A stretch of 64,000 nucleotides of DNA, taken from Lacticaseibacillus yichunensis. GTDB lineage: Bacteria; Bacillota; Bacilli; Lactobacillales; Lactobacillaceae. The notes below the pieces were generated by a model. The model ran no database searches. It had not been told where the DNA came from and saw only the letters and a program-made list of their open reading frames with translations. Where the stretch lies: positions 1-64,000 of the forward strand of contig NZ_RHOG01000007.1 of assembly GCF_003946405.1 (NCBI RefSeq), in the 5' to 3' direction. Positions 8,348-11,293 of the stretch are shown piece after piece. The first letter of the stretch is position 1; each line of letters begins with the position of its first letter. A program made the position numbers and the translations under genes.

Positions 8348-9376
8348 TCAGATCGTGAGCCCGCGCGCCTCGGCGTAGTGGGTCAAGTCCGGCCCAAGCA
8401 CGATCGGCACCTGGCGCAAGGCGCAGAGGTCTTTTGCCCCTAGCATCGCCATGAGCAGAGCGAGTTGGTCTTGCCAGGCCTGAAGATGAGCGATGGCGGC
8501 GGCTTCGCCTTCCTGGACCAGCCAGTGCAGGACCTGTCCGGCGATGCCGACCGCACTGGCGCCGAGCCGCAGCGCCTTGAGAATATCCAGCGGGGACCGC
8601 ACGCCCCCGGTTGCCAGGATGGTGAGGCCGTCAACAGCCGTGGCTTCAAGCAGCGATTCGCAGGTGGTCTGGCCGAAGTCTTGCAGATACGCGAAGTCGC
8701 GAGCCGGCCGCCGCAGATTCTCAACTTGGGCAAAATTGGTCCCGCCGCGCCCGCCGATGTCGACATACCGGACACCAAGCGCTTGCAGCTTCGCGAGGCC
8801 GTCGCGGGTCATGCCAAAGCCGACTTCCTTGGCGATAACGGGCACGGAACTGGCATCCACAATTGCCGCAAGTTGCGCCGCCCAGTGAAAATCGCGTTCG
8901 CCCTCGGGCATCACCGTTTCCTGCACGGCATTGAGATGGACTTCCAGCGCGTTGGCCTGCAGCATCGCCACCGCCGCCGCCCCGGCATCGACCCCATGGC
9001 TGGTGCCGATGTTCGCCAGCAGAAAGCCGTCTGGGTCATTTTCGCGCAAGGTCGAGAAGGTGGGCGCCAGCGCTGGTTCCGCTAATGCGACGGTTTGAGA
9101 GCCGCTGGCCAGCGCCAGGCCGGTCGCGCGCGCGATGCGGCCGAGCTTCGCGTTCAGCTGCCCAGTCTGTGCAGAGCCGCCGGTCATCGCGTTGATGAAA
9201 AATGGCCAGCGCCAGCCAAACAGGTCCGGCTTCAGATCGACTTCTGCCACCGCCGTTTCCGGCAGTGGATCATGGCAGAAGCGAACCTGATCGAACCCCG
9301 CCGTCGCCGTTTGCTGGAAAGTTTTTTCCGCGAGAAAGACATGTTCGTCCTTGCGGTGTGAGCGTTCAGATTGCAT
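8348..9376 (-). CDS. fni: Type 2 isopentenyl-diphosphate delta-isomerase
   Basis: 342 aa FMN- and NADPH-dependent isomerase interconverting isopentenyl and dimethylallyl diphosphate. Visible family signatures: RKDEHVFLAEK near residue 7, FFINAMTGGS near residue 58, IGTSHG near residue 121, VDIGGRGGTNFAQVE near residue 207, and the C-terminal flavin-phosphate site ATGGVRSPLDILKALRLGA. The start lies inside the last 11 bases of mvaD, so it is coupled as third gene of the mevalonate operon. Phosphomevalonate kinase, which usually sits just before fni in lactobacilli, is absent. Confidence 0.93.
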   Translation of the reverse strand: MQSERSHRKDEHVFLAEKTFQQTATAGFDQVRFCHDPLPETAVAEVDLKPDLFGWRWPFFINAMTGGSAQTGQLNAKLGRIARATGLALASGSQTVALAEPALAPTFSTLRENDPDGFLLANIGTSHGVDAGAAAVAMLQANALEVHLNAVQETVMPEGERDFHWAAQLAAIVDASSVPVIAKEVGFGMTRDGLAKLQALGVRYVDIGGRGGTNFAQVENLRRPARDFAYLQDFGQTTCESLLEATAVDGLTILATGGVRSPLDILKALRLGASAVGIAGQVLHWLVQEGEAAAIAHLQAWQDQLALLMAMLGAKDLCALRQVPIVLGPDLTHYAEARGLTI

Positions 9377-10346
9377 CGCTTGCCTCCTTGAGAATGCGGG
9401 CAGCTGGCCCTGGCCCCGTGGTCAACAGGCGGCCGGCAAAGGAATCGGCCAGCGCGGTCACCACTGCGTCGACATAAGGCGCCAGGGTCAAGATCTTGAC
9501 GTTCGGGCCGGCATCCATCGTCGCATACGCCGGCACGCCGCTTGCCCGCAGCGCTTGCACCTTTTGCCAGGCGACCAGGGTCTCCGGTTCAAAATAAGTG
9601 AAGGAGGGCTCACTGGCCATGATCGCGGCGTGCATCTGCATGCTGCTGGCCTCGGTCAAGGCGCCGACTTGGGCAAAATCGTTGGCGGCCAAGGCGCGGA
9701 CCATTTTTTCCGCAGCCGCTTCATTGTGCTGGACCCAGGCCGGAAAATACGGGCTGGTGGCGATGGTCGCGGTCATCATTTGGCGGGAGCTGATTGCCTT
9801 GCGTCCCTGATCGACCAGCACCACGACCATTTTCAGCGGAAGCGTGGTCGCCGGCAGGGGTTCGGCAAAAGAGGTCGTGTCATCGCTGCCGCGGTGCCAG
9901 ATCGCCAGCCCGCCGAAAATCGAGCGAGAGGCAGACCCAGACCCCCGGCGTGCCAACCGCGACAGGTCCGTCGGCGTCAAGGCCAGGCCGGCTGCGCGGC
10001 TGGCGGCCAGGGCCAAGGCGGCAAAGGCCGAGGCGGAACTGGCGAGTCCGGCGGCGGTCGGGACGTGGTTGAGTGAGCGGACATGGGCATGAGCAGTTGT
10101 CCCGCTTTGGGCGCGGACGAGATCCAAAAACGCGCTGATCTTGCCGGCTGGTCGCACCTCGCCGTTCAGTGAAAACGTGTCTGCAGCAAGGGTCGGGTCG
10201 AATTCGACGGTCGTATCGGTGTACAGGTCAGCCAGGGTCAACGAGACAGAGCTGGTGTAAGGCAAGATCAGTTTCGCATCCCGTTTGCCCCAGTATTTGA
10301 TCAAGGCGATATTGGTGTGGGCGCGAGCCGTTACGGCGTGGGTCAT
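9366..10346 (-). CDS. mvaD: Diphosphomevalonate decarboxylase
   Basis: 326 aa GHMP-superfamily enzyme making isopentenyl diphosphate from mevalonate diphosphate with ATP. Signatures: AHTNIALIKYWGKRD at residue 9, VPTAAGLASSASAFAALA near residue 90 (ATP-binding loop), and a C-terminal ATMDAGPNVKIL with the catalytic aspartate region. Its ATG overlaps the mvk stop as ATGA, and its stop overlaps the fni start. Both joins are tight, leaving no room for another gene. Confidence 0.95.
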   Translation of the reverse strand: MTHAVTARAHTNIALIKYWGKRDAKLILPYTSSVSLTLADLYTDTTVEFDPTLAADTFSLNGEVRPAGKISAFLDLVRAQSGTTAHAHVRSLNHVPTAAGLASSASAFAALALAASRAAGLALTPTDLSRLARRGSGSASRSIFGGLAIWHRGSDDTTSFAEPLPATTLPLKMVVVLVDQGRKAISSRQMMTATIATSPYFPAWVQHNEAAAEKMVRALAANDFAQVGALTEASSMQMHAAIMASEPSFTYFEPETLVAWQKVQALRASGVPAYATMDAGPNVKILTLAPYVDAVVTALADSFAGRLLTTGPGPAARILKEASDAI

Positions 10347-11293
10347 GACGGATCCTCACTTTCTACAAGGTCGTATTGCCAGGTGGTGGTTGCCCCGGCG
10401 GCTTCAAGGGCGCGGCGCAAGTGGACGGCTTGGGCAGGCGCTTTGGTTAAGGCAATCATGCAGCCGCCTTGTCCGCTGCCGGTGAGCTTGGCCCCAAGCG
10501 CCCCGGCATTGAGGGCGGCCGCCACCAGTTGATTGAGGGCGGGAGAGCTGACGCCGAGCTGACGCAATGCGTTTTGGCTGATTGTCAGCTGCCGGCCAAG
10601 CAGCGGCAAGTCATCCTGGGCAAGCGCAAGCGCCGCCTGGCTGGTCGCCTGACCAATCGCCTCGATCAGTGGCTGATAGTGCGCTGGGTCCTGAGTCAAT
10701 TTGGCGGCGACACTGGCGACGGCAGTTTTGGTTTGGCCGGGCACGCCGGTATCGGCGATCACCAGGCTCCCTGTTGTAGGAAAATCGATCGGCGTTGGCG
10801 CCTGGCCGCGCACAAACCATTGCGGGGCTGTGGCGCTGGCCGTGGCGGCGTCCAGCCCGCTGGGATTGCCGTGGATGATGCGCTCGGAGACGTTGGCCCA
10901 GTTGAGCAGGCTGTCGTGGGGCAACGGGGCATCGAAGGCCTGATACACGGCGCGGATAATGGCGACGGCGGTGGCTGCGGACGACCCCATCCCGCGTTCG
11001 GGCGGGAGCATACTGCTGATGGCCAGGTCAAACCCTTGCGCCGGCGCCTCAAAAAAGGTCAACAGGCGCCTGATCAGCGTCGCGATACCCGCAAATGGGG
11101 TCTGCGCGGCGTCGGCTAAACTGCCTTGATAAAAGATCGAGGCGATCTGCTGGCGGTCGTCCGTTCGTGGGATCAGCGTTGCGGTGACCGTCAGTGAGCG
11201 AATCGGCAGGGCGATCGCGGGTTGTTGATAGACCACCGCGTGTTCGCCGATCAATATGATTTTTGCATACGAGATACCTTGGCTTTTTCTCAT
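10343..11293 (-). CDS. mvk: Mevalonate kinase
   Basis: 316 aa GHMP kinase, first gene of the minus-strand mevalonate operon; it phosphorylates mevalonate at the 5 position. Signatures: KIILIGEHAVVYQQPAIA near residue 10, PPERGMGSSAATAVA near residue 93, HGNPSGLDAA near residue 139, and LTGSGQGGCMIAL near residue 273. These are mevalonate kinase and not phosphomevalonate kinase patterns (for example EHAVVY and NPSGLD). The ATG is preceded by AAGGAGCAGCTG. It diverges from rexB across 151 bases that hold a TATCAT -10 candidate on the minus strand. Confidence 0.93.
   Translation of the reverse strand: MRKSQGISYAKIILIGEHAVVYQQPAIALPIRSLTVTATLIPRTDDRQQIASIFYQGSLADAAQTPFAGIATLIRRLLTFFEAPAQGFDLAISSMLPPERGMGSSAATAVAIIRAVYQAFDAPLPHDSLLNWANVSERIIHGNPSGLDAATASATAPQWFVRGQAPTPIDFPTTGSLVIADTGVPGQTKTAVASVAAKLTQDPAHYQPLIEAIGQATSQAALALAQDDLPLLGRQLTISQNALRQLGVSSPALNQLVAAALNAGALGAKLTGSGQGGCMIALTKAPAQAVHLRRALEAAGATTTWQYDLVESEDPS

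Follow-up and report, generated by a model that had tools for sequence, protein, structure and literature searches.

The DNA analysed here, which we call the window, is a stretch of 64,000 nucleotides from Lacticaseibacillus yichunensis (NCBI RefSeq assembly GCF_003946405.1, contig NZ_RHOG01000007.1, positions 1 to 64,000), and it carries three overlapping genes of the mevalonate pathway on its minus strand. Using NCBIfam equivalog models with curated cut-offs, we assigned these as fni, for a type 2 isopentenyl-diphosphate isomerase of 342 aa (positions 8348-9376; TIGR02151, 346.7 bits, cut-off 281.3), mvaD, for a diphosphomevalonate decarboxylase of 326 aa (positions 9366-10346; TIGR01240, 301.3 bits, cut-off 171.35), and mvk (mvaK1), for a mevalonate kinase of 316 aa (positions 10343-11293; TIGR00549, 258.5 bits, cut-off 163.05). 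A sequence-only reading of this locus had reported overlaps of 4 and 11 bases among the three genes, none of which read as a phosphomevalonate kinase. Both statements held: the open reading frame coordinates give overlaps of 11 bases for fni/mvaD and 4 bases for mvaD/mvk, and none of the three genes reaches the cut-off of the phosphomevalonate kinase model TIGR01220 (165.7 bits), the nearest being mvk with 43.2 bits. Because of the 11-base overlap, there is no space for an mvaK2 remnant between mvaD and fni. By its model score and its nearest solved relatives, of which the best by sequence is the mevalonate diphosphate decarboxylase 5v2l (E 8e-84), MvaD is predicted to be of the ordinary diphosphomevalonate decarboxylase type. 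The operon is bordered by rsmF beyond fni and, at the other end, by addB (Pfam ADDB_N), which is divergent from mvk. No tRNA that might mark an insertion site was found within the window, and a plasmid search with the operon as query returned 5 records, 0 of them covering 80% of the query.

A profile search of the source genome (2,558,704 bases in 73 contigs, 100% complete) located the gene that is absent from the operon. The only match over the TIGR01220 cut-off was mvaK2, encoding a phosphomevalonate kinase of 364 aa on the plus strand of contig C7 (G000:C7:50126-51178), with 470.7 bits against a cut-off of 165.7; the second match in the genome was the window's mvk, which at 26.4 bits fell under the cut-off. 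The reading frame on C7 is free of internal stops, with a GTG start as given by the ORF tool, and the protein scored alone obtained 471.1 bits. MvaK2 is 99% identical to the MvaK2 of Lacticaseibacillus mingshuiensis strain 117-1 (L101), and we read the source genome as close to that species. Its solved relatives named phosphomevalonate kinase are 1k47 (E 3e-38) and 3gon (E 4e-38), and a closer solved relative is Lin0012 (3k17, E 1e-76). In a control set of 14 genomes that holds no positive, 0/14 matched TIGR01220 over the cut-off and 6/14 matched below it. On C7, mvaK2 is flanked upstream by map, for a type I methionine aminopeptidase, and downstream by a TMEM175-family gene. Scans of the operon and mvaK2 loci revealed no promoter-like site, and terminator-like sites there were not commoner than in shuffles; these null scans are uninformative about mvaK2 transcription. 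The sequence-only reading had called for a genome search for mvaK2 and had named a standard gene elsewhere as the outcome that would make its observation a simple relocation. That is what the search returned, and of the two explanations offered, that the gene has moved was the one borne out.

mvaK2 is present throughout the sampled genus. All 30 Lacticaseibacillus genomes encode mvaK2 over the TIGR01220 cut-off, the gene being cut by a contig end in G024, and in 29/30 (the exception being G016) a weak TIGR01220 match also marks mvk. Among those 29 genomes, mvk and mvaK2 lie 273-498 kb apart on the same contig in 8 and on different contigs in 21; it is the 8 same-contig genomes that demonstrate the separation, because different contigs of a draft assembly can still be adjacent in the chromosome.

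Compared to the genus, the wider family mostly keeps the genes together. Across 151 sampled Lactobacillaceae genomes, mvaK2 was over the cut-off in 142 and mvaD in 151. Taking "beside" to mean the same contig with match starts less than 4 kb apart, mvaK2 lies beside mvaD in 134/151 genomes (35 genera), where 7 of the 134 calls rest on below-cut-off or partial mvaK2 matches (G030, G069, G081, G057, G092, G121 and G169) and a few more reach the cut-off only jointly with a neighbouring piece (G076, G132, G038 and G106). The two genes are apart in 14/151, from four genera (g1, g11, g12 and g21), of which g12 is taken to be Agrilactobacillus and g11 the genus to which Lactobacillus selangorensis belongs. 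Three genomes were left unclassed, since mvaD of G036 and mvaK2 of G091 (65% complete) and G146 were not among the matches listed. Named relatives give a similar picture: among the loci of the best 80 of 531, the order mvk-mvaD-mvaK2-fni occurs in 61/80, and no mvaD is present in the DNA retrieved around mvaK2 in 19/80. These 19 split loci comprise 15/15 from Lacticaseibacillus, 3 from Agrilactobacillus (including a metagenome-assembled genome that bears the title Lactobacillus sp., isolate UW_MP_AGRLAC1) and 1 from L. selangorensis; the flank of mvaK2 is short on at least one side in L103, L105 and L109. The sequence-only reading's statement that mvaK2 lies between mvaD and fni in most lactobacilli agrees with these samples.

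A separate observation concerns genus g29 (G057, G092, G121, G146 and G169), in which no mvaK2 match is over the TIGR01220 cut-off. In the four of these genomes with an mvaK2 match among those listed (not G146), the start of a partial mvaK2 match lies 0.8-1.3 kb from that of the mvaD match. Judged from these positions, g29 probably retains a divergent phosphomevalonate kinase inside the cluster.

The site of the three remaining genes looks like the old one. By tblastn, rsmF adjoins fni in 8/9 split genomes (L192-L197, L199 and L200), an rsmF match being absent in L198, and it also does so in both intact genomes examined (L201 and L202). This shared border suggests, as a gene-order inference, that mvaK2 left and the cluster stayed. 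At the new site, flanks of 1.5 kb around mvaK2 (less for a few loci) contain map in 11/30 genus loci, and map also occurs in the DNA retrieved around mvaK2 for 7/19 split named loci, including that of L. selangorensis. In 4/5 longer Lacticaseibacillus stretches (L181, L183, L190 and L191; not L182), the genes near mvaK2 include map and two others, one of the BrkB family and one flavodoxin-like, and all three are also near mvaK2 in the L. selangorensis stretch L184. The genes downstream of mvaK2 in L184 are read as putative exopolysaccharide genes, and they recur downstream of mvaK2 in 2/3 g12 stretches (L185 and L186; not L187). Finally, one of the three g12 stretches (L185) shares with the two g21 stretches (L188 and L189) an antiporter-like gene located upstream of mvaK2. 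In these comparisons the non-overlap ORF filter missed mvaK2 in L182 and both mvaD and mvk in L193, all of them real genes that tblastn recovers.

These neighbourhoods bear on whether mvaK2 left the cluster more than once within Lactobacillaceae, with the rest of the cluster staying put each time. The chain of shared neighbours that links Lacticaseibacillus to L. selangorensis, L. selangorensis to g12 and g12 to g21 favours one exit followed by rearrangement, and neighbours shared at the new site make repeated escape less likely. On the other side, we compared small single-gene midpoint-rooted trees of 40 MvaK2 and 40 MvaD sequences, all from Lactobacillaceae. Split-genus sequences, nine in all from four genera, form no single clade in either tree; their common ancestor spans 18/40 leaves for MvaK2 and 40/40 for MvaD. 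Trees that do not unite the split genera count against a single exit. Weighing the two, we consider more than one departure of mvaK2 unlikely.

The scatter of the split-genus sequences in these small trees (18/40 and 40/40 leaves) would also be compatible with a foreign gene, that is, with mvaK2 on C7 having been gained by transfer from outside the family once the resident gene was lost, as opposed to the resident gene having moved. Against this, Lacticaseibacillus MvaK2 is placed among the Lactobacillaceae, adjoining Latilactobacillus, in the midpoint-rooted tree, which contains the family only. Furthermore, pairwise identities of MvaK2 and MvaD are correlated (r = 0.87; 780 non-independent pairs with shared taxa). 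Acquisition from outside the family is therefore regarded as improbable.

The rest of the pathway was also sought in the source genome. HMG-CoA synthase is encoded on contig C48 (TIGR01835, 471.2 bits, cut-off 360.35) and adjoins there a gene for an HMG-CoA reductase homologue (L098), which gave 229.1 bits with TIGR00532 (E 6.9e-68), under the cut-off of 259.95. The three genes mvk, mvaK2 and mvaD are all present over the cut-offs of TIGR00549, TIGR01220 and TIGR01240, respectively. With mvaK2 located elsewhere in the genome, as in relatives, the pathway looks complete and ordinary in its predicted gene content.

The remaining explanation offered by the sequence-only reading, another route to the diphosphate, is unsupported. 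The archaeal isopentenyl phosphate kinase model, a search for which had been proposed, gave a best match of 21 bits in the source genome against a cut-off of 120, so an isopentenyl phosphate kinase route is unsupported; the same model matches 14/14 control genomes, 3/14 over the cut-off. DXR (TIGR00243), the sole enzyme of the MEP pathway that was sought, had no match in the source genome at E 0.001, compared to 9/14 control genomes over the cut-off, and the MEP pathway is likewise unsupported. In a bypass of phosphomevalonate kinase of the archaeal or Chloroflexi type, phosphomevalonate would be decarboxylated by MvaD or by some other enzyme, and IPP would then be produced by isopentenyl phosphate kinase. 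Such a bypass would fit the three-gene operon as it stands in the window, and MvaD does match the phosphomevalonate decarboxylase model NF040704 at a lower score (183.1 bits, cut-off 475), but the bypass is extremely improbable in a genome where a full-length MvaK2 removes the need for it, no isopentenyl phosphate kinase is over the cut-off and MvaD exceeds that of the diphosphomevalonate decarboxylase model.

Together, these results indicate that the window almost certainly holds part of an ordinary mevalonate pathway of the bacterial type, in a Lacticaseibacillus whose mvaK2 lies at a separate genomic site and not between mvaD and fni. Judging by the family to which each protein is assigned, Mvk would convert mevalonate to 5-phosphomevalonate, MvaK2, encoded at its own locus, would convert 5-phosphomevalonate to the diphosphate, MvaD would decarboxylate the diphosphate to IPP, and Fni would isomerise IPP to DMAPP. 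Compared to the mvk-mvaD-mvaK2-fni cluster that most of the sampled Lactobacillaceae carry, the genome has the same four genes, the remaining three stand in the same order and rsmF likewise adjoins fni (as in L201 and L202), whereas mvaK2 is missing between mvaD and fni and sits on C7 near map.

Relocation of the phosphomevalonate kinase gene in Lacticaseibacillus is an already known arrangement. According to a 2022 paper (PMC9160967), mvaK, mvaD and fni of Lacticaseibacillus rhamnosus form one operon and pmvaK has its own locus, L. acidophilus keeps all four genes together, and earlier work cited there describes a single operon in most Lactobacillales. L. yichunensis, a different species of the same genus, resembles L. 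rhamnosus in having an mvaK-mvaD-fni operon with the phosphomevalonate kinase gene at its own locus, and the paper's passages on these genes describe nothing by which the two arrangements would differ. The genome has the pathway genes, and no alternative route is called for. For annotation, the locus is a reminder that the mevalonate operon does not include the phosphomevalonate kinase gene in Lacticaseibacillus and in at least three further genera.
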